From NCBI GenBank assembly GCA_009692485.1, contig SHZB01000018.1, positions 1 to 32,222 on the forward strand: a stretch of 32,222 nt of DNA, read 5' to 3'. This document shows, piece by piece, positions 2,613 to 27,677 of the stretch (its first letter is position 1; the number at the start of each line of letters is the position of its first letter). The notes beneath the pieces are model-generated. The model was given only the letters and a program-made list of their open reading frames with translations. It was not told the origin of the DNA and ran no database searches. The DNA is from Myxococcales bacterium (GTDB taxonomy: Bacteria; Myxococcota_A; Polyangia; Polyangiales; Polyangiaceae). The position numbers and the translations under genes were made by a program.

Positions 2613-4954
2613 TTGCCACTCTCCCACCAATGGACGGTCTTGGGCACGGCGCGGGTCGCGTTGGTGCCGCAGTGCACCTCACCGAGGAGGCGATGGTAAA
2701 GGTCCCAATTCTCAACCCAGTAGACCGTGACGCCGTAGGGCGAGAGCGCCTGGGTGAGCTGCGACTTGAAGATGTCGACGTTGTTGATGAGCGGCCCGTG
2801 CGGCTCTGGCGTCGCGAACACCGAGTCGCTCATGTAGATGCCGTTTACCGTGCCTGGATTGAACGCAACCGAGTAGCCGGACTGCGCCCAGTGCAGATAC
2901 GGGACATCGACGATTTCAGCGTCGGTGAGCCCGGTCTCGGCCTTGAGCGCAGCCACCTGTTCGCCGACCTTCACCGCAGCCCATGCGCTCTCGTTCATGA
3001 TGTCCGGATCGGCGAGGACCTTTGAGATCGTGATCGCGGCGGACACGTTGGTGCTCCAGAACTTGCCGACGAACATCTGTTTTTGGCCGTTGCCGTCCTT
3101 CTGCTGCTGCTCGAGGAGCTGCTTGGCGAGCGCGGCGTCGTTCGCGAGCATGACCCAACCGCGCGGCGAGTTCGCCTTCACGAAAGAGACCGTCTCGTCC
3201 ACGTGTCCGACGAGCAGCCACGAGGTGTCGATCGTGACGAGGCCCTGTACGGAGTTCGACGTGATGAGTTTGTCGAAGGCCTTGTCCGGGTAGAAGCTCG
3301 CGTGGCTTCCGCGCAACACTCGCCCGAGCGGCCATGCCTTTCCGTTGTGCGTATACGGCGGGATCGTCTCGGTGTTGCCGAACGAGTTCAGCGTGTCCAT
3401 CGAGTCCGAGTGATTCGGGTCGTAGACGACGGCGCCGGCGATGTCCTTGCCTTGGAAATCCGTGAACACGACGCGGCCCGCCGTGCGGAGCTTGCCGGAG
3501 GCGTAGTTCGCCGAGCGAAAATTGACGTGCAGCGCTTGTTTTCCGAGGACCGACGGCATGGCCATGTACGCCGTCTCGAAGAAATCCTGCGTCCACTGGT
3601 CCGCCTCGAACACCTCGTGAACGCCGACTTTTGCCGCACCCGCTGCATCCGCGAGGTCGTCGCGAAACAGCGTGCTCGCCGTGGAGTTGAAGCTCGTCAC
3701 GTAATAAGTGGTCAATGGGTCGAGGTGGTGGCGAAACACGACGGGTGCCACGCGCATCCGCACGGTGTCGGTGCCGCCCATGACGTCGCCGCCGTTCACC
3801 GTGAGCGTGACGTCGACGAAGCCGTTCCAGCTCGCGCTGTCGCGCACGAAGTCTTTGCCCTCGATCGCGAGCTCGACGCCGCTCTTGAGTTCACTTGCGC
3901 TCAACGACGCGCCGGGCACGTACTCGGACCACGCGCCGCCGGCCTTCTTGAAGAGTCGGACGAATTTGCTGCCTGGGCTCGCGACGCTCACAGAGCCGCT
4001 GGCGCCGGCATTTGCGCTTGGCCAGGGAGCGATCTGCAGGCGCGCGAGATCGAGCAAATCGTCGGTGCCGTTGATGACGTTGTCCGCGGCATCGTTGCAG
4101 GCGGCGAGCGCGGCATCGGTGCCGGTGGACGGGCACACGCTCGCGTCGTCGTCGATGTTGGCGAGGAAGATGGCGCCGTGGGTCGCATCCCATGTGCTCT
4201 CGGCGTTGTCTTCGCTCGGCTCGGCGAGATCGATCTTGCCGTTGCGGTTGTTGTCGGCGCGAAGATCGACGATGGCGGCAGGGCACGCGGGGGTTTGCCC
4301 GTCACAGTCCTCATCCGCGGCGGTGGCGCAGCTCTCCTCGGCGGGAAGAAGTTCGCCCTTGCAGGCACCGTAGCCGGAGCCATCCGGGAGGCATGTTTGG
4401 GCGCCCGCCTTGCAATTGCCGACGTTCTTCGTCGCTGCGGGCCCGGAGTAACACTCGGCGTTCGTGCCGGGAGCGCACGCGCAGTCGACACCGTCCTCGT
4501 TGACGGCGCCGTCGCAGTCGTCGTCGCCGGGTGTGACGCAGAGTTCTTCGGACGGGACGATCTGTCCAAGGCAGGGACCCCAAGTTCCGTCGCTCGAGCA
4601 GCTCTCGACGCCCGCGCTGCACGAGCCGATGCCTTGCGTGTCCGCAGGGCCGTCGTAGCAATTGCGTTCGTTGCCGGGGACGCAGCCCGAGGCGCCACTG
4701 CCGCCCGTGCCGTCATTGCCTCCGACGCCGACCTCGACGCTCGCGCCTCCGACGCCAGCGAAAGAGCTGTCGACACTCTCGTTGTTGTTCTTGTCGGTGC
4801 CATCGCCGAATAGAACGTCGTCCGCTGTACAGCTCACGAGTCCGGGGGCGAGCGCGAGGGCGAGTGCGAGGGGCAACGCCGCCGTGTCGAGCGGCGACGG
4901 GCGTGCGATGGGAAGCGACTCGGGTGCTCGACTTGGGCGTAGCTTGAGAGGCAT
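2609..4954 (-). CDS. Lipoprotein protein-arginine deiminase (PADI type) with MopE-like modules
   Basis: The predicted reaction is Ca-dependent conversion of peptidyl-arginine to citrulline plus ammonia, outside the cytoplasm. The 781-residue protein starts at ATG 4954, giving a signal peptide and lipobox LVSC (Cys42). A Gly-rich linker follows to about residue 90. Two Cys-rich modules (about 91-158 and 160-224) each end in DDDCDG or DEDCDG, as in MopE-like metal-binding motifs. From residue 228, ADNNRNGKIDL and later GAIFLANIDDD match the Ca-binding middle domain of animal PADs. The catalytic domain (about 440-781) has WTQD (Asp457), GHVDE (His584, Asp586) and GEVHCGTN (Cys762), equivalent to Asp350, His471, Asp473 and Cys645 of human PAD4. 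Spacing is close to PAD4 (127 and 176 residues here, 121 and 172 there). It is the first gene of a minus-strand operon and is coupled to the HEAT gene. An upstream extension to 5182 is open but lacks a signal peptide. Confidence 0.9.
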   Translation of the reverse strand: MPLKLRPSRAPESLPIARPSPLDTAALPLALALALAPGLVSCTADDVLFGDGTDKNNNESVDSSFAGVGGASVEVGVGGNDGTGGSGASGCVPGNERNCYDGPADTQGIGSCSAGVESCSSDGTWGPCLGQIVPSEELCVTPGDDDCDGAVNEDGVDCACAPGTNAECYSGPAATKNVGNCKAGAQTCLPDGSGYGACKGELLPAEESCATAADEDCDGQTPACPAAIVDLRADNNRNGKIDLAEPSEDNAESTWDATHGAIFLANIDDDASVCPSTGTDAALAACNDAADNVINGTDDLLDLARLQIAPWPSANAGASGSVSVASPGSKFVRLFKKAGGAWSEYVPGASLSASELKSGVELAIEGKDFVRDSASWNGFVDVTLTVNGGDVMGGTDTVRMRVAPVVFRHHLDPLTTYYVTSFNSTASTLFRDDLADAAGAAKVGVHEVFEADQWTQDFFETAYMAMPSVLGKQALHVNFRSANYASGKLRTAGRVVFTDFQGKDIAGAVVYDPNHSDSMDTLNSFGNTETIPPYTHNGKAWPLGRVLRGSHASFYPDKAFDKLITSNSVQGLVTIDTSWLLVGHVDETVSFVKANSPRGWVMLANDAALAKQLLEQQQKDGNGQKQMFVGKFWSTNVSAAITISKVLADPDIMNESAWAAVKVGEQVAALKAETGLTDAEIVDVPYLHWAQSGYSVAFNPGTVNGIYMSDSVFATPEPHGPLINNVDIFKSQLTQALSPYGVTVYWVENWDLYHRLLGEVHCGTNATRAVPKTVHWWESGK

Positions 4955-13562: not shown

Positions 13563-14678
13563 ATGCAGCTTGGCGGCGCTTGGTTCATCGCGGCTCTCGC
13601 GGTCGCGTGCCTAGGTGCGGCGGGCTGCGGTCCCACGCCCATCAGCGGTCTCGGGAGCGATGGGCCCGGGCCGACCGAGCCCGCGGCGAAAGAAGGCGCG
13701 GAGCTCTATCGACGCTACTGCGCGCTATGTCACGGCCACGCTGGCGAGGGCTACGCCGCAGACCACGCAAGTCAGCTGAATAACCGGCAGTTCCTGACGA
13801 CGGCGAGCGACCCATTCTTGTTGGTGGCGATCGAGCAGGGGCGGCTCGGAACGCCGATGGCCGCGTACGGCAAGCGTTTCGGCGGTCCGCTCGGCCTCGA
13901 GGAAATGCGGAAGATATTGGCCTTCATGCGGAGCTGGCAGACCGAAGCGCCGCAGCTGCTCTCGAGCGAACCGGTGCTCGGCGATCCGCTCGCGGGATCA
14001 CTTGTGTTCAAGGAGCGTTGCGCGCGTTGTCATGGTGAGCGCGGCGAGGGCAAGACGGCGATGAGCGTCAGTAACCCGGTGTTTCTCATGTCGGCGAGCG
14101 ATGCCTTCGTTCGTCACGCGATCGTCCACGGACGTCCCGGCACGCCGATGCCCGCCTTCGGACGCACGCTGACGGCGGGGGCGATCGATGACACGACGGC
14201 GTACCTGCGCTCGCTCGCGCGCACCGTGGATAGAGCCACGACCGCGGGTGATTTGCCGCCGTCGTTCGATCAGGTCGTCGTGAATCCCGATGGTCCAATG
14301 CCCGAGTTTCCGCCGCTGCGCGATGGCCGCTATCTGGCAGCCGCCGTCGTCCACCGCGAGCTTGCGCGAGGGGCGCGGATGGTGCTGCTCGATGCGCGGC
14401 CGACCTCGGATTGGCTCATGTCGCACATTCCCGGGGCGTTGCCGGTGCCCTACTACGATGCCAACCGCATGAGCGCGAAGCTGCCAAAGGATGGCACTTG
14501 GATGATCGCCTATTGCGGCTGTCCGCATGCGGCATCCGGGCAGGTGATGGATACCCTGCGCGCCGCCGGAGCCCAGAACACGGCCGTGATCGACGAGGGG
14601 ATCTTCGAGTGGATCCGCCGCGGATATCCCATCACGCACGGCCGCAAACCGACACTGGGCGCGCCGATTGGCAACTAG
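13563..14678 (+). CDS. Diheme cytochrome c-rhodanese fusion lipoprotein
   Basis: This 371-residue protein joins two c-type cytochrome domains to a rhodanese domain. The signal peptide ends at GAAGC (Cys22). The first cytochrome has CALCH (Cys53, Cys56, His57) with a likely Met ligand in GTPMAAYG (Met99). The second has CARCH (Cys153, Cys156, His157) with Met196 in GTPMPAFG. From about residue 258 a rhodanese fold follows: MVLLDARPTSDWLMSHIPGA, then YCGCPHAAS, with Cys318 at the expected place of the catalytic cysteine, and AVIDEGIFEWIRRGYP. Predicted roles are electron transfer in the periplasm linked to sulfur handling, for example sulfane-sulfur or thiosulfate chemistry; the substrate is unknown. 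ATG 13563 gives the signal peptide directly. The last residues, IGN and the stop, are encoded by the first unit of the 14-bp repeat. Confidence 0.9.
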   Translation: MQLGGAWFIAALAVACLGAAGCGPTPISGLGSDGPGPTEPAAKEGAELYRRYCALCHGHAGEGYAADHASQLNNRQFLTTASDPFLLVAIEQGRLGTPMAAYGKRFGGPLGLEEMRKILAFMRSWQTEAPQLLSSEPVLGDPLAGSLVFKERCARCHGERGEGKTAMSVSNPVFLMSASDAFVRHAIVHGRPGTPMPAFGRTLTAGAIDDTTAYLRSLARTVDRATTAGDLPPSFDQVVVNPDGPMPEFPPLRDGRYLAAAVVHRELARGARMVLLDARPTSDWLMSHIPGALPVPYYDANRMSAKLPKDGTWMIAYCGCPHAASGQVMDTLRAAGAQNTAVIDEGIFEWIRRGYPITHGRKPTLGAPIGN

Positions 14679-14777
14679 CGATTGGCAACTAGCGATTGCC
14701 CAACAGCGATTGGCAACTAGTGATTGCCCAATGGCGATTGGCCAATAGCGACTGGCAACTAGCGACTGGCAAAAGGG
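14666..14777 (+). repeat. 14-bp minisatellite between two gene ends
   Basis: About eight consecutive 14-bp units of the type GATTGGCAACTAGC run from 14666 to 14777. Variants include GATTGCCCAACAGC, GATTGGCCAATAGC and GACTGGCAACTAGC. The first two units are identical, and the last is degenerate. The first unit supplies the last residues and the TAG stop of the cytochrome-rhodanese gene. On the minus strand the array is read as the tail of a truncated gene (ASCQSLLANR-type sequence). Confidence 0.93.
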
Positions 14778-16298: not shown

Positions 16299-19200
16299 CT
16301 ATTGCTTCGCACGGGCGGCTTCGGATTGGAGGAGGCCGGTCGCGGTGTCGATGAATTGGGCAATCGCCTGATTGGCAGTTACGCGCTGGTCTGTATTGCC
16401 ATTACGGAGGAGATTGCCATTCCGGAGGAGGGTCGTCGCCGCGCAGATCGGTTCGCGCTCTTTCGAGGGAAAGGCGAGGCATAAAAGGCGGTAGGAGCCG
16501 AGCGTTTTTTGGGTATCGATGGGCTCGGCGGCGAGCACGGCGGCGGCGTGGTGTAACAGCAATACGAGCGCGCCGAGGTCGGGGGAGAGCTTGCGCCAGG
16601 TGTCGATGAAGTGGTCAGTCTTGGTGAGGGCGAGGAGCGGCGCGGGGTGACCGTCTTTGGCGATGCGAGCGGCGAATTGGAGCAGCTCGAAGCGGCGAAC
16701 GGGAGATGAGAGAGAGCTCGTGAGCGCGTCCATGAGCGGGATGTCGTCGTCGTGAGTGTGGGGCAGGGCGCACAGGAGGGCCACGCTCAAGGCATCGGCT
16801 TGCAGGGCGGCGCCGAGCTCGGACTTGCGACCGAGCGTGCGCGCAAGGACGATGAGCTCTTCGCTGCAGTGCTGTGGGTGCCGCTGGTTGGCGAGCAGGG
16901 TCGCGGCGTCGGCGAAGCGCTGGTGAGTTTTGAGCTCTGTGACGGCGTCGGAGAAGAGGGCGGGCTCGTAGCGACGCTCGGAGGCGGCGGCGAGGAAGGC
17001 GTCGAGCGAACGCAAGGCCGCGCACTCGGGCGGGTCTTGCGGGGAAGCCGCGGCGAGGCGTGGCAGGTGGGGCAGGCCGTCGGCGATGCGGAGGCCGAGC
17101 GCGAGCGAATAGTTGCCGCACGCGGGACGGCGGAATCGATCGGGATCGCCCAGTTTTTCCGTGCAATTCAGCGGCGCGAAGAGTGTCGCGAGCGAGTCGG
17201 AGGCGCGCGCGGCGACCGGCTCGAGGCCACCGACATCCGCGAGCCAAGTGGGCAAGGGCGTGAGGGCGGATGCGACGGCGGCGTCGTCGGCGCGATCTCC
17301 CAAGGCGCGGCGCTCGAGCGCGAAGAGCGCACCGGCGAGGAAGGGCTCGCCCGCTTCGGCGCTCTGTTGCGCGGCGAGCGCGATGGTGGCGGTGGCGTCG
17401 CGGAGCCAGCTGCCGTCCGGCTCGGGGCTGACGGCTGCGTCACCGAGGCGCGAGACTCCGGTCCACGCGCCCATGGCCGCGCGCGCGTGACGGCCAGCGC
17501 GCACGCCGTCGCCCGTGAGCCGGTAGAGCACGCTGGTGAGGAGGGCTGCGTGTGCGAAGAAGCGGGCGCCGTCTGCGCGTGCGCTGGAGGAGTTGCGCGG
17601 TTCGAAGGAGACGTCGAGCGAGCTCGAGCTCTTGGCGCCAAGCTCCACGACGCCGAGGCCGACGTTGAAGGTGCTGGCGTTGGTGAGCAAGGGGCTCCCG
17701 AGCGAGATGCTCTCGTCGGCGCTGAAGATCCAGTTGCCCCGTTGCTCGCGGAAGCGAAAGTGCTGACGCGGCACGGCGAGGCCGTCCTTCTCGGCGCGCG
17801 CGAGGACCGTCTCGAGGAGCGCGAGCGCATCTGTGCGTTGGCCGGCGCGAAATTGTTCGAGGGCACGGCGCACGGTGAAGATCGGGGTCGCGTCGGGGGG
17901 CACGCACACGCCCTCGGTCGCGAACGCGAGCGCGGCTCGGAGCGCAGCTTCGTCACGACCGCGCATGGCCTGTTCGGTGCGGAGCGTGAGCGGCACAAGG
18001 ATGGGGCGCCGGCGCGAGCGCGCGACCTCGAGGGTGGTGAGGGGAGGCTCCTTGTCCGTCGCGATGAGGACGGCGTGCGACATCAATAAGAGGACGTCGC
18101 CGGCGATGGTGGCGTCGCGCTCGAAGGCTTGTGCGGCGAGCGCGGTGAGGGCCTCGGCCGGGGAGCTCGCGGCGAGCAGAGTGCCGACCGCGCTCGGTTC
18201 GTCGAGCCACGCGAAAGCGGAGAAAGCGGAGGAGGCATGGGGCGTTTCGAAGACTGCGCGGAGGGCCGAGAAGAGCCGAAGACCGTGCGAGCGCAGCTGG
18301 GCGGTGTCGGGTGCGTCCCCGGGCGCGAGCAGGCGCAGGAGCAGGTAGCTCTCGGCGATGGCCGTCGCGATGTCGGAGTCGAGCGGGCCCCCGAGGGCGG
18401 CGGCGACGATCGTGCGCGCCTCGTCGTGAGCGATGGCGAGCTTGAGTTTTTGCGTGCCGCGGGACGCGAAATCGAGGGCGTCGCTGACGACGAGCGCGAG
18501 CAGCATCACGCGCGGCGACACGGGCCGATCGCTTGGGCGTGCGCGGGCGAGCCCGAGGAGGCGGCGCTGTTTTTTTCGCAGCCGCTCGAAGGCGTCACGG
18601 AGCGGGTCGGTCGGGATGCGCGGCGCCGACTCGCATGAACCGGATGGCGTCGGAGTGCGCACGAGGGTGGCCACGGCGGTGATGGTGCCGTCGGTGAAAT
18701 CGACCAGCTCGTTACGAAAGTCGATGTCGCTCGGGGTCGGGGCGGCTCCATCGTCGAGGCCGGAAATTGCGGCAACTAGGGCCACGCGGGCAGTTGTTCG
18801 CGAGTTCGTGAACAAGCGCGGGTTCGCGACGGCGGCGTCGAGCGAGCCATCGAAAACGAGCGGGAGATAGCGAACGATCGCTGCGGAGAGCGCGGCGAGC
18901 GTGGGCTGCGGCAGTGGTCCGCCGAGCGCGTCGGCGATGTGCGGCGCTCCGGTGGCGAGCGCGTCGGTGTGTCCGAGGGTGAGGCCGAGCACGGCGTGTG
19001 CGGCGTGAAGGCCCGCGAGCCCCCAGCTATGGCCGGCGCCGACGGGGCCGCGGAGCTTTTCACCGAGCGCGTCGAAGAGCTTGGCGAGCTGTGGGCCCTG
19101 GCCGAAACCCGGCTCAGACATCGCGAGCGCCACGGCCAGGAGCCCCGCGTCGTAGAGCTCGGACACGCTCGCGGCGGCGCGGACTTTAGCGGCCTCCGCG

Positions 19201-20730: not shown

Positions 20731-20892
20731 GCAACGACGTCTACCTCATCGCCAACAAGCAGAACATGAAGCGTGACGAGCTACTCCCGCTGCTCGACGA
20801 CAACGCTCCCGACCCCGCGATGTTCGATAGCGAGCACACGCCGAGCGCGGTCCGCCTTGCACGCTCGTGTCAGATTCCATACCGTCGTACGC

Positions 20893-21153
20893 ATGACACG
20901 TACGTCTCGCGGGCCGCGAAGAACGGCTCCCGCAATCCGAGCCACTGCACTACGCGCAGATCTGTATCGCCTGCTTGATCACGTGCTCGAAACCGGGCAA
21001 CCCGTGCGAGTTGAACGCAAAGGCAAAGTACTTCGTATCGAACCCGAGGCATCGGCTTCCAAGTTGGAAAGCTTGTTGCCGCAACCGGACTTGATCATCG
21101 GCGATCCGGACGACCTTGTTTCCATTGATTGGTCGGACGAATGGAAACCATAG
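20893..21153 (+). CDS. Antitoxin, Phd/YefM-like
   Basis: This 86-residue protein starts at ATG 20893. The body reads AIRATALRADLYRLLDHVLE, TGQPVRVERKGKVLRIEPEA, then LIIGDPDDLVSIDWSDEWKP. The first part is the Phd/YefM-type DNA-binding fold (the A-x-x-L-R-x-x-L-Y-x-L-L-D motif). The acidic, Trp-containing tail is typical of antitoxins that wrap a PIN-domain toxin. An extra Arg-rich N-terminus (MTRTSRGPRRTAP) precedes the usual start of the fold; no ATG lies closer, and no strong Shine-Dalgarno is seen. CGTACG occurs twice around the start (20886-20891 and 20899-20904) and could be an autoregulatory operator. The gene overlaps the toxin by 13 bp, the normal arrangement for a type II pair. Confidence 0.85.
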   Translation: MTRTSRGPRRTAPAIRATALRADLYRLLDHVLETGQPVRVERKGKVLRIEPEASASKLESLLPQPDLIIGDPDDLVSIDWSDEWKP

Positions 21154-21527
21154 TCCACCTCGATACGCACGTGGTTGTGTGGCTTGCTGCTGGCGATCGC
21201 GGCCGGTTGCGACGCGTTTGGCCGAGGCTCCTCCGCTCAAAACTCGTCATCTCGCCGATGGTCGCCCTCGAGCTCGAGTATCTGCACGAGATCGGACGAC
21301 TCCGAGACAAGGGAGCTGTGGTGCTCAAACAGCTCGTCTCGAGTGTTGGCGTGCAAATGGCGCTGACTCCCTTCCCGACCGTCGTCGAGGAAGCCCTCAA
21401 GATTCGCTGGACGCGAGATCCCTTTGACCGATTCATCGTCGCCCAAGCAATCGCCGAAGGCGTCCCGCTCCTTACCAAGGACAAGCGCATTCGAGATCAC
21501 GTCGCCACCGCAGTCTGGGCACCGTAG
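21141..21527 (+). CDS. PIN-domain toxin (VapC-like ribonuclease)
   Basis: This 128-residue protein starts at ATG 21141 inside the antitoxin gene. The PIN fold is clear: LDTHVVVWLAAGD with the first acidic residue (Asp7), SPMVALELEYLHEIGRL with Glu at the second site, DPFDRFIVAQAIAEGVPLLT with the third acidic site, and KDKRIRDH at the end. These are the residues that bind divalent metal in known VapC ribonucleases, so an active RNase is expected. Its likely targets are tRNA or rRNA, as for other VapC toxins, but this cannot be told from sequence. The antitoxin overlaps it by 13 bp. The pair lies between two copies of the 40-bp palindromic element. Confidence 0.9.
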   Translation: METIVHLDTHVVVWLAAGDRGRLRRVWPRLLRSKLVISPMVALELEYLHEIGRLRDKGAVVLKQLVSSVGVQMALTPFPTVVEEALKIRWTRDPFDRFIVAQAIAEGVPLLTKDKRIRDHVATAVWAP

Positions 21528-21627: not shown

Positions 21628-21648
21628 CGCGGCAGGTTAAACCCGTGA
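21625..21648 (+). other. Possible seven-codon leader peptide overlapping oppA
   Basis: ATG 21625 opens MRGRLNP and stops at TGA 21646-21648, overlapping the oppA start as GTGA. CAGGG sits upstream within the palindromic element. The same GTGA overlap is used at later junctions of this operon, which supports the idea that the ribosome could be coupled from this leader to oppA. There is no other support. Confidence 0.25.
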
Positions 21649-23744
21649 AGCGCAGCAGCTTGGTACGCGGCGGAGGTGGAGGCGCGCAGGAGTCCCGGCT
21701 CTGGTCCTTGTGGTCCTGGGCGCTCGCGCTCGTACTGCTCGCGGCGTGCAGGGCGGAGAGCGAGCCGGGCTATTTCGGGACCGTCGGGCGGCGTGGAGGA
21801 GCGCCGAACACGTTCTACGTCAACAACTACGACGAGCCCGAGCACCTCGATCCCGCGCTCGTGAGCGAGAGCGCCGGCTCCACGTTGCTGCTCGAGTTGT
21901 TCGAGCCTCTCGTCGGTGAGCACCCCGCCGATTTGCACGCGATTCAAGGCACAGCGGAGCGTTACGACAAGAGCGACGACAACCGCAGCTATCGGTTCTA
22001 CCTGCGGCAGAATGCGCGCTGGTCCGACGGCCGCGCGGTCGTCGCCGAAGACTTCGCGTGGGCGTGGCGGCGGGTGTTAGTTCCCGAGACGGGCGCGCGC
22101 CAGGTGACGATGATGTTCGCCCTCAAGAACGGGGCGCTGTTTCATCGCGGCGAGCTCGCGGTCCTGAATGCAGAGTTCGGTGGACTTGTCAAGGGCACGC
22201 CCTTGCGGAGCTACGAGCGCACGCCGGAGAACCTGCGTCGCGCGCCGGCTTTGGTGCCCGCCGAGGCGACCCACAAACTCGTCGGCGTGCATCGCGCGAT
22301 GCCGACCTTCACGGGCGTCGCGCCACCGGCGTCGAGCCTGACCGCGGCTGGAGCTGCGGCATCCGTGGCTGGAGCTGCGGCATCCGTGGCACCGAGCCCC
22401 GAGCCGCTCTTTTTCGTGCCGGCGGCGTTGCTCGAGCGGAGCGATGCGGTCCTCGGCGTGCGGGCCACGAGCGAGCACGTCCTCGAGGTCGAGCTCGAGC
22501 AACCGACGCCGTATTTTCTCGAGCTGCTGGGCTACCCCGTGTTCTACCCGGTGCGGCGCGACGTCGTCGAACGGCACGCGGGCTCGGGCGAGGCCGAGCG
22601 CTGGACGCGGCCCGAGCACATCGTCGTGAACGGCCCTTTCACGCTCGCGCGGCACGACTTTCGCTACGAGATGCGTCTCGAAAAGAACCCGTTTTATTGG
22701 GAAAAGGACGCGATCGCCATCGAGCGCATCGTCGTCTTCGAGGTGCCGAGCGCGCAGGCGACGCTCGCGCTCTACAAGACCGGTGAGCTCGACTACCTCG
22801 GCTCGAACGGGGCCTTGCCGACCGGCTCGATGGACCGCTTGCTCGGCTATCGCGATTTCGGGCGAGCCCCGTGGACCGGCACGTACTGGTACGAGTTCAA
22901 CACCGAGCGACCGCCGCTCGACGACGTGCGCGTGAGGCAGGCGCTCAACCTCGCGCTCGACAAACGCGAGCTCATCGACTCGGTCGCGCGCGCCGGCCAA
23001 GCGCCCGCGACCCACTTCGTGCCGGAGCTCACCGGCTCGGGCTACGCGGCTCAGGTGCGCGCCGACAAAGCCGCCGGCGTCGATCCCTTCGCGACCCGCT
23101 TGCTCGGCTTCGACGCGGCCCGTGCGCGCGCTCTCCTCGGTGAGGCGGGCTTCACGGTGCGCGAGCGCGACGGCACCTGGATGGCGGAAGGATTTCCGCC
23201 GCTGGAGGTCCTCTACAACACCTCCGAGGGCCATCGCGCCGTCGCGGTCGCGGTCCAGGCGCTCTGGAAGAAGCACCTCGGCGTCAGCGTCACGCTCCGC
23301 AACGAAGAGTGGAAGGTGATGATCAAGAACATGCGCGACGGTCACTTTCAGGTGGCGCGCTTCGGCTGGGTCGCCGACTACGATCACCCCCACAATTTCC
23401 TCGATACGTTCCTCTCGTACAGCCAGAACAACATGACGCGTTGGCGAGACGAGGCCTTCGACGAAGTGATGGCGCGCGCCGCGGCGGAGCCCGATTCGAA
23501 GCGGAGCATCGCGCTCTACCGTCAAGCCGAAGAGCGCGCCGTCCATGCCATGCCGCGGATGCCGATCTATTTCTACACGAAGAGCTGGCTCATCAAGCCG
23601 TACGTCAAGGGCTTCTATCCGAACGCGATGAACAAGCACCCGATCCACTGGATGTGGCTCGACGAGAGCTGGCGCGCGAACCCCGAGAATCGCCCCGCTC
23701 ACGTACCGCACGAGCTGCCGCCGCCCGGGAGCTACGCGCCGTGA
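21645..23744 (+). CDS. oppA: Oligopeptide ABC transporter substrate-binding lipoprotein
   Basis: This 699-residue protein belongs to the extracellular solute-binding family 5. The signal peptide ends at LLAAC (Cys35), so it is lipid-anchored. Family blocks: NNYDEPEHLDPALVSESAGS, SYRFYLRQNARWSDGRAV, EDFAWAWRRVL, NGPFTLARHDFRYEMRLEKN, FNTERPPLDDVRVRQALNLA, LDKRELIDSV, then FGWVADYDHPHNFLDTFLSY. It captures peptides for the permease encoded next. At about 700 residues it is longer than E. coli OppA (543). Part of the excess is an Ala-rich segment (about residues 225-260) containing a 21-bp duplication. GTG 21645 is preceded by AGG eight bases upstream. The C-terminal 18 codons lie in the first copy of the 56-bp duplication. 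Confidence 0.93.
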   Translation: MKRSSLVRGGGGGAQESRLWSLWSWALALVLLAACRAESEPGYFGTVGRRGGAPNTFYVNNYDEPEHLDPALVSESAGSTLLLELFEPLVGEHPADLHAIQGTAERYDKSDDNRSYRFYLRQNARWSDGRAVVAEDFAWAWRRVLVPETGARQVTMMFALKNGALFHRGELAVLNAEFGGLVKGTPLRSYERTPENLRRAPALVPAEATHKLVGVHRAMPTFTGVAPPASSLTAAGAAASVAGAAASVAPSPEPLFFVPAALLERSDAVLGVRATSEHVLEVELEQPTPYFLELLGYPVFYPVRRDVVERHAGSGEAERWTRPEHIVVNGPFTLARHDFRYEMRLEKNPFYWEKDAIAIERIVVFEVPSAQATLALYKTGELDYLGSNGALPTGSMDRLLGYRDFGRAPWTGTYWYEFNTERPPLDDVRVRQALNLALDKRELIDSVARAGQAPATHFVPELTGSGYAAQVRADKAAGVDPFATRLLGFDAARARALLGEAGFTVRERDGTWMAEGFPPLEVLYNTSEGHRAVAVAVQALWKKHLGVSVTLRNEEWKVMIKNMRDGHFQVARFGWVADYDHPHNFLDTFLSYSQNNMTRWRDEAFDEVMARAAAEPDSKRSIALYRQAEERAVHAMPRMPIYFYTKSWLIKPYVKGFYPNAMNKHPIHWMWLDESWRANPENRPAHVPHELPPPGSYAP
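22347..22388 (+). repeat. 21-bp in-frame duplication in oppA
   Basis: GCTGGAGCTGCGGCATCCGT plus one base occurs twice in a row (22347-22367, 22368-22388), encoding two copies of AGAAASV in the Ala-rich insert of the binding protein. The frame is kept. Confidence 0.9.
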
Positions 23745-23796
23745 ATCGCCCCGCTCACGTACCGCACGAGCCTCGGCCGATCAGGAGCTACGCGCC
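23685..23796 (+). repeat. 56-bp tandem duplication at the oppA-oppB junction
   Basis: Copy 1 (23685-23740) ends the oppA gene. Copy 2 (23741-23796) fills the intergenic space. Most bases are shared, and the differences cluster in the centre (CTGCCGCCGCCCGG versus CCTCGGCCGATCAG). Each copy holds a Shine-Dalgarno (GGGAG at 23727, AGGAG at 23783) and is followed directly by GTGA, at 23741 and 23797. The duplication has therefore doubled the stop-start coupling signal. Confidence 0.95.
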
Positions 23797-23800
23797 GTGA
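23741..23800 (+). CDS. 19-residue mini-ORF linking oppA and oppB
   Basis: GTG 23741 overlaps the oppA stop as GTGA, and the frame reads NRPAHVPHEPRPIRSYAP after the start, ending with TGA 23798-23800. That stop overlaps the oppB start GTG 23797, again as GTGA. It arose from the 56-bp duplication and repeats the C-terminus of OppA (NRPAHVPHELPPPGSYAP). A GGGAG lies nine bases before its start. It could be translated only to keep ribosomes moving to oppB. No function for the peptide is implied. Confidence 0.4.
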   Translation: MNRPAHVPHEPRPIRSYAP

Positions 23801-24723
23801 GTCGTTTCATCGTGCGGCGCATCCTCGCGCTCGTGCCGACCTTGTGGCTCACCGTCACGCTGGTGTTTTTTTTCGTGCGGCTCGCGCCCGGCGGACCCTT
23901 CGACGGGGAGCGCGCCGTCCCGCGTGAGGTGCTCCTTGCGCTCGAGGCGAAGTACCACCTCGGCGATCCGCTCTATCGCCAGTACCTGGATTTCCTCGCA
24001 GATCTGGTGCTGCGCGGCGATCTCGGGCCGTGCTTCAAGTACCCCGGGCGCACCGTGAACGAGCTCTTGCGGGTGAGTCTGCCGGTGTCGCTCCAGCTCG
24101 GCGTCATGGCCATGACCTTCGCGCTCGCCGTCGGCGTTCCGCTCGGGGTCATCGGCGCGCTACGCCAAAATACCTGGGCCGACACCCTCGCGACCAGCGT
24201 CGCCATGATCGGTGTCAGCGTGCCGCGTTTCGTGCTCGCGCCGCTCCTCGTGATGGTGTTCGGGCTCCAGCTCTATTGGCTGCCGGTCGCGCGCTGGGAG
24301 TCGTGGCGTCACGCGATCTTGCCGGTCATCTGCGCGGGCCTGCCTACGGCCGCGTACATCGCGCGGCTCACGCGCGGCGGCATGCTCGAGCTGGTGCGGG
24401 CGGACTTCGTGCGGACGGCTCGCGCCAAGGGACTCGGTGAGGGCGCGATCGTCGTGCGCCACCTCTTGCGCGGCGGGCTGTTGCCGGTGGTGAGCTACCT
24501 CGGACCGGGCTTCTCGGGGCTCTTGGTGGGCTCGCTCGTGGTCGAGACGATCTTCAACATCCCGGGCATGGGGCGCTACTTCGTCGAGGCCGCGACGAAC
24601 CGCGACTACAACATCGTGATGGGCGTAACGATCGTCTACGGCACCTTGCTGATGACGCTCAACGCCCTCGTCGACATCGCCTACGCGTGGCTCGATCCGC
24701 GGGTCAGCCTCGAGGAGCTGTGA
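23797..24723 (+). CDS. oppB: Oligopeptide ABC transporter permease, OppB type
   Basis: This 308-residue inner-membrane protein has about six transmembrane segments. The first is ILALVPTLWLTVTLVFFFV. The family motif PGGPFDGERAVP follows, then a permease core with LQLGVMAMTFALAVGVPLGV. The EAA-type loop that docks the ATPase is seen in ELVRADFVRTARAKGLGEGA. The end, FNIPGMGRYFVEAATNRDYN, is diagnostic for the DppB/OppB family. GTG 23797 is preceded by AGGAG nine bases upstream, and it overlaps the mini-ORF stop. The stop overlaps the oppC start as GTGA. Confidence 0.95.
   Translation: MSRFIVRRILALVPTLWLTVTLVFFFVRLAPGGPFDGERAVPREVLLALEAKYHLGDPLYRQYLDFLADLVLRGDLGPCFKYPGRTVNELLRVSLPVSLQLGVMAMTFALAVGVPLGVIGALRQNTWADTLATSVAMIGVSVPRFVLAPLLVMVFGLQLYWLPVARWESWRHAILPVICAGLPTAAYIARLTRGGMLELVRADFVRTARAKGLGEGAIVVRHLLRGGLLPVVSYLGPGFSGLLVGSLVVETIFNIPGMGRYFVEAATNRDYNIVMGVTIVYGTLLMTLNALVDIAYAWLDPRVSLEEL

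Positions 24724-25721: not shown

Positions 25722-27673
<1,952 letters not shown>

Positions 27674-27677
<4 letters not shown>

Follow-up and report, generated by a model that had tools for sequence, protein, structure and literature searches.

The question raised by this locus is how a 19-codon open reading frame (ORF) came to lie between the first two genes of a transporter operon, joined to both by overlapping stop and start codons, and whether translational coupling between these genes would have survived its arrival. The window, i.e., the whole stretch of DNA that was analysed (32,222 nucleotides of contig SHZB01000018.1, Myxococcales bacterium assembly GCA_009692485.1), carries an operon for an oligopeptide-type ABC transporter consisting of oppA, oppB, oppC, and a gene for a fused double-ATPase protein, with the domains of an Opp/Dpp-type operon (SBP_bac_5, BPD_transp_1 twice, ABC_tran, and oligo_HPY). 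Both Opp ATPases appear to be fused into a single protein of 651 residues, in which ABC_tran and oligo_HPY stretches occur twice each (25722-27677). As called, oppB and oppC overlap by 4 nt at 24720-24723, a single, unduplicated junction of the same operon, and an in-frame 21-bp tandem repeat (2.3 copies, 22342-22390) adds an Ala/Ser-rich stretch within oppA. Just 5' of oppA, at 20773-21527, lie a Phd/YefM-like ORF (weak, below the Pfam cut-off) and a PIN-domain ORF, possibly a toxin-antitoxin pair. The features of the oppA-oppB junction are the following:

21645..23744, forward strand: oppA, solute-binding protein (SBP_bac_5); start set by a home-made gene caller, longest ORF from 21537
23683..23738, forward strand: repeat copy 1, OppA C-terminal codons and Shine-Dalgarno (SD) motif
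23727..23731, forward strand: GGGAG, SD-like, ahead of the mini-ORF (duplex -6.6 kcal/mol)
23739..23794, forward strand: repeat copy 2, mini-ORF body and SD of oppB
23741..23744, forward strand: first GTGA, overlap of oppA stop and mini-ORF start
23741..23800, forward strand: 19-codon mini-ORF, M-NRPAHVPHEPRPIRSYAP
23783..23787, forward strand: AGGAG, SD-like, ahead of oppB (duplex -7.1 kcal/mol)
23797..23800, forward strand: second GTGA, overlap of mini-ORF stop and oppB start
23797..24723, forward strand: oppB, permease (BPD_transp_1)

The two 56-bp copies lie head to tail at a spacing of 56, are identical at 49/56 positions, and were reported by TRF as one array (23683-23804, period 56, score 188); a repeat of this quality lies well outside what chance would give. 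The original prediction of a tandemly duplicated 56-bp unit, comprising the end of OppA, a Shine-Dalgarno motif, and the stop-start GTGA, was thus borne out, and all of its points on the chain of oppA, 19-codon ORF, and oppB were confirmed, with GGGAG and AGGAG each nine bases 5' of its GTG (counted by eye). In detail, oppA stops with TGA at 23742-23744, the mini-ORF runs from GTG at 23741 to TGA at 23798-23800, and oppB starts with GTG at 23797, so that each link shows a -4 stop-start overlap and an SD-like motif, as in a termination-reinitiation pair. The mini-ORF frame is open further 5' within oppA (ORF 23309-23800), and its 5' limit is hence given by its own start codon and SD rather than by an upstream stop. 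SD strength at both starts, computed against an assumed 16S tail, is ordinary for -4 starts of this genome (median -5.95 kcal/mol, n = 74), and none of three stretches examined for RNA structure at the junction was unusually stable (z 0.20, 0.11, and 1.05). At E <= 0.001, the 181-bp stretch window:23650-23830 matches only itself in its own genome.

Relatives were compared at 23 oppB loci with 56 to 87 percent identity to OppB; loci L015-L031 (OppB identity of 51 percent or less) were excluded from the junction count, and 7/23 loci without an adjacent oppA match in the available DNA were set aside, leaving 16. If the duplication were derived, relatives should have one copy with a direct oppA-oppB overlap, and this is what was found: the junction was duplicated in 0/16, and a direct -4 overlap was present in 11 (the others at +1 in two, +6 in two, and +15 in one, where the start codon is open to choice). 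The best 40-nt self-match near the junction reached 20 to 24/40 in 15 of the 16. In the nearest relative (G002), OppA ends in ENRPAHEPRELASPARFAP, followed directly by GTGA. As no relative is duplicated and 11 have the direct -4 overlap, the 56-bp duplication is, on this sequence comparison, derived and was gained in this lineage. In the sixteenth, L013 (G068), which encodes a distant OppA orthologue, a 51-bp repeat (38/40 nt) lies in the OppA tail before the stop, as judged by eye.

Copy 1 is more similar to the single copy of G002 (45/62) than copy 2 (38/62), and it keeps the ELPxPG tail of many relatives, the codons of which often form the SD (by eye); hence copy 2, the coding part of the mini-ORF, is the drifted one. 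Out of seven differences between the copies, one lies at the breakpoint and six fall within 12 nt (23772-23783). Since random scatter would produce such clustering with P 0.0009, the six probably arose in one local event; when a template for the changed cluster was sought in the window, the site itself was the sole match. The SD-like and GTGA parts are conserved between the copies, unlike the coding middle of copy 2.

The intact register can be explained arithmetically. Across an overlap of -4 or -1, the reading frame steps back by one from the upstream to the downstream gene, and the next stop falls in the mini-ORF frame solely when the duplication length L is 2 mod 3. In a simulation in which the junction was collapsed and duplicated again with L from 20 to 120, a relay resulted from 34/34 lengths of class 2 (L mod 3) and from 0/67 others; class 0 lengths gave an N-terminal extension of OppB in 34/34, and class 1 lengths gave 32 overruns and one early stop. 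The peptide had been said to repeat the C-terminus of OppA even though 56 is not a multiple of three. The repetition stands (14/18 residues after the start codon match the OppA tail by eye), whereas the concession has to be reversed: the tail recurs because 56 is 2 mod 3, which matches the -1 frame step of GTGA. At a single junction, the prior chance of an intact register is one in three.

Judging from the sequence features, the mini-ORF is probably the product of a slippage duplication which is tolerated because ribosomes are handed on through it, and its peptide is probably functionless. Slippage between the imperfectly matching flanks CCGAGAATCGC and CCGTGAGTCGT (8/11 by eye) would have generated the 56-bp duplication, and, because 56 is 2 mod 3, the copied unit has rebuilt the junction in register as oppA, mini-ORF, and oppB, each link having its SD-like motif and an overlap of -4. 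A ribosome ending oppA would then restart on the mini-ORF, terminate 19 codons on, and restart on oppB, and coupling would survive as two hand-overs at -4 rather than across a gap; a 56-bp insertion lacking an ORF would put 52 nt between the stop of oppA and oppB. The mini-ORF would thereby serve as a ribosome-delivery spacer, and, with a fraction r retained per hand-over, oppB would receive about r squared plus its own initiation. For reinitiation, no more than the final 15 nt of the preceding gene may be required, and coupling is almost lost at about 20 nt (PMC10666635), and a review gives similar short-distance results together with constructs that couple well above 50 nt (PMC12548453); because of the latter, a gap would not surely break coupling. 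Against the relay explanation, oppB carries an SD-like motif of its own. The middle of the coding part of copy 2 has diverged, so that there is no sign of the mini-ORF peptide being kept, and a function of the peptide is unsupported.

The junction lies in a repeat-rich genome with a fragmented assembly (277 contigs, completeness 85.85). In a sample of 1,275,277 bases of it, 598 tandem arrays with a period of at least 12 were found, a very high density of about 47 per 100 kb, compared to 11.5 per 100 kb in a genome of the same genus (G004) and 21 in one of the same family (G035; 400 kb each). Inside genes, the period of its arrays is divisible by three in 228/241. Similar-looking array motifs (GATTGGCAACTAG and the like) occur in the window at 14665-14773 and in L069 at 4300-4490 and 18228-18298, and perhaps represent a dispersed minisatellite family. 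A dispersed 35-bp family was considered and rejected, the eleven 35-bp arrays having no obvious common consensus by eye.

Chains of gene, overlap, mini-ORF, overlap, and gene were scanned for repeats with an identity of at least 0.7, a scan that, being based on -4/-1 overlaps, detects 2 mod 3 lengths only and hence says nothing on selection. This genome yielded 1015 chains, each nested or alternative chain entering the total separately. Most of them had no repeat similarity; hits were spread over many places, and six were counted as junction relays including the window; G004 gave 0/298 chains and G035 1/324, a weak 17-bp case. With L124, which came from a separate array grouping, six relays besides the window were counted in 1.28 Mb, with units of 17 to 41 bp. 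The first five listed were checked by eye, and neighbours were named from Pfam except at L036:

L079, 35 bp: MAGKLESEIAL and MAGKLDSEVAS, flanked by genes for an ABC ATPase and an FtsX/MacB-like permease
L107, 41 bp: two copies of MSREVSTREVESAR, flanked by genes for an ABC ATPase and a solute-binding lipoprotein
L065, 41 bp: MTIAEFLFHAWTVA, beginning like the downstream and ending like the upstream neighbour
L071, 29-bp units: preceded by an additional mini-ORF and lying between a glycosyltransferase-4 and a nucleotidyltransferase-like gene
L036, 17 bp: followed by a gene read as a lipoprotein
L124, 26 bp: M20 peptidase followed by an MshEN protein, spacing +8

Three of the seven relays (window, L079, and L107) lie in ABC transporter operons, and by eye the sequences of the other relays are unrelated to that of the window. 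Relatives of L079 have one direct -4 junction in 3/3 found (G002, G007, and G064). For L107, seven loci were compared, six with both genes; a -4 start exists in 6/6, some with alternatives, and none of the six has the junction repeat (best tandem self-match 0.76 or less). For L065, four of seven relatives have both genes, with -4 available in G002 and G020 and +3 in G003 and G004, and the repeat is absent in these four (best 0.76 at 21 bp). For L071, three of six relatives have both genes, two at -4 and the third in frame from GTGA by eye, again with no junction repeat. A tight overlap was found in 0/7 relatives of L124, which is therefore not a duplicated -4 junction. Relatives thus lack the repeat at four of the six junctions, and it is partly shown that the same kind of duplication struck several further gene junctions in this genome with its many minisatellites. 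After the stop of the orthologue of the upstream gene of L124 in G002 (L188), a 13-codon ORF lies between two ATGA, with no repeat identity by eye.

Several candidates were left out of the count. L136, L142, L070, L078, L067, and L083, as well as the 17- to 23-bp chains other than L036, were not seen to have called genes on either flank as required, were of low complexity, or were short. At L068, the downstream start lies outside the 21-bp duplication. The 50-bp repeat of L135 spans stop and start without forming a relay, the earlier spacing having been about 24 nt by eye. L064 was likewise rejected as a relay: its 53-bp repeat ends a gene which we take to be recJ, and 42 nt separate the array from the called start of the next gene, presumably MlaF-like.

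The distribution of duplication lengths was assessed, with no selection on frame, on 943 genes of this genome from the home-made caller, among which -4 is the commonest same-strand spacing (74/591 adjacent pairs). Stops within a 20-120 bp tandem duplication of at least 0.80 identity and with a conserved stop image qualified (49/873), and those followed by a coding gene with a possible start between -4 and +10 of the final stop image were taken as junction cases. There were six such cases (L036, L064, L065, L107, L124, and the window), and relay-keeping lengths were found in 6/6, compared to class 2 in 18 of 43 control duplications (Fisher p 0.0096), in a test that is small and was devised after the cases had been seen, with L064 a doubtful member and a control (classes 0, 1, and 2 at 19, 6, and 18) in which class 2 itself outnumbers class 1. 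The rule did not pick up L079, the length of which nevertheless fits. Under relaxed criteria, the comparison became 6/8 vs 22/61 (p 0.043), with L050 and L124 at 17210 running against. Neither G004 (265 stops, 2 duplications) nor G035 (230 stops, 0 duplications) provided any junction case. In a grouping based on TRF arrays, classes 0, 1, and 2 numbered 2, 1, and 6 where the next same-strand gene begins within 20 nt past the array, the six including L135 (no relay) and L131 (a poor 14-bp array). The numbers were 10, 9, and 9 where it begins further off, a group into which L107 and L036 fall because the caller misplaced the starts after them, and 13, 3, and 8 at convergent ends. Relay-keeping lengths thus look over-represented among the duplicated junctions of this genome, and a weeding out of lengths that break the chain is suggestive only. 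The idea that the coupling chain was kept intact while a new micro-gene arose is in part supported, namely by the unduplicated junction of the relatives, by the intact architecture of the chain, and by these lengths.

The same data could be read as a neutral minisatellite in which the register was kept by luck (one in three), translation of oppB starts by means of the SD of that gene, and the mini-ORF represents an unimportant, little-translated by-product. With about 47 arrays per 100 kb, an in-register event is expected now and then; AGGAG stands nine bases ahead of the oppB GTG, and mini-ORF chains often occur with no repeat similarity at all (the majority of the 1015). Random placement, calculated before the relay scan, predicted 0.187 two-copy arrays with a -4 junction in 809 kb; the junction duplications exceed this expectation, however, and relay-keeping lengths in 6/6, or 6/8 under relaxed criteria, also count against a neutral origin, which we regard as unlikely though by no means negligible. 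A wider reading, in which the stop-start junction of minisatellite-rich genomes is an evolvable module, duplicated by slippage and filtered by purifying selection for lengths of 2 mod 3 (at -4 and -1 overlaps), with the number of relay steps tuning the downstream-to-upstream protein ratio, is offered tentatively and as rather doubtful; if true, operons would be seeded with micro-ORFs made from protein tails.

A wrong joining of two strain variants as two copies would agree with the fragmented assembly and with copies identical save for one short cluster and one breakpoint base, but it is very improbable, since other contigs carry numerous arrays of diverse periods, several of them in at least three copies, and the 56-bp unit is located inside an intact operon. 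Equally little credence can be given to a 19-residue functional microprotein selected for itself: the frame is still open and 14/18 residues remain as in the OppA tail, but the peptide is absent in 16/16 relatives, and 6/7 copy differences fall in 12 nt of the mini-ORF body while the SD-like and GTGA parts were kept.

Returning to the tolerated duplication that would pass ribosomes on, the nearest known counterpart of such a junction relay is the family of mycobacterial interspersed repetitive units (MIRUs). The ORF of a MIRU at an operon junction is linked to the following gene by coupling at -4 nt, and expression is probably little affected (PMC12548453), and the units at senX3-regX3 measure 77 and 53 bp (PMC4213456). 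The likeness lies in a short repeat at an operon junction with an ORF linked at -4 nt (here GTGA at 23741-23744 and 23797-23800) and in the unit lengths, which are 2 mod 3, as is 56. MIRUs are, however, one dispersed, apparently mobile family, whereas the units described here are local copies of their own junctions: 23650-23830 is unmatched elsewhere in the genome, and the unit copies the local OppA tail instead of being inserted at start codons. Because it is homologous to the single junction of relatives, it is no mobile insertion. At rnc-fpg of M. tuberculosis, longer repeats generally go along with higher fpg mRNA (PMC2734929); these units (55 and 79 bp) are 1 mod 3 and concern a transcript effect outside the 2 mod 3 rule.

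Termination-reinitiation at NTGA overlaps with an upstream SD is described across prokaryotes (PMC6728339 and PMC10666635); ordinary -4 reinitiation is one direct hand-over, whereas here two would take place in series via a repeat-derived mini-ORF. The iraD leader ORF, the stop of which overlaps the start codon, affects the next gene (PMC5574718), and short ORFs influencing the next gene are also given by mgtQ (PMC8092293) and the axe-txe minigene (PMC8708949). These are regulatory by experiment, whereas the mini-ORF appears to be a recent gene-tail duplicate. The origin of unidirectional overlaps has likewise been modelled, via point mutations shifting stop or start codons, the word "duplication" being absent from that study (PMC3887535); here the overlap was copied by tandem duplication. 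Among titles and abstract openings, with subscription journals mostly outside the search, no report of a local tandem duplication of a stop-start junction was recognised, and nothing relevant was found on tandem repeats in myxobacteria.

For operons of this kind, the finding amounts to an arithmetic rule for which duplications a coupled operon tolerates, which two MIRU unit lengths also fit. It would further provide natural variants with one, two, or three hand-overs, from which the share of the ribosome stream that survives each reinitiation could be measured, and it describes a concrete route by which tiny ORFs may enter operons without any function of their peptides.
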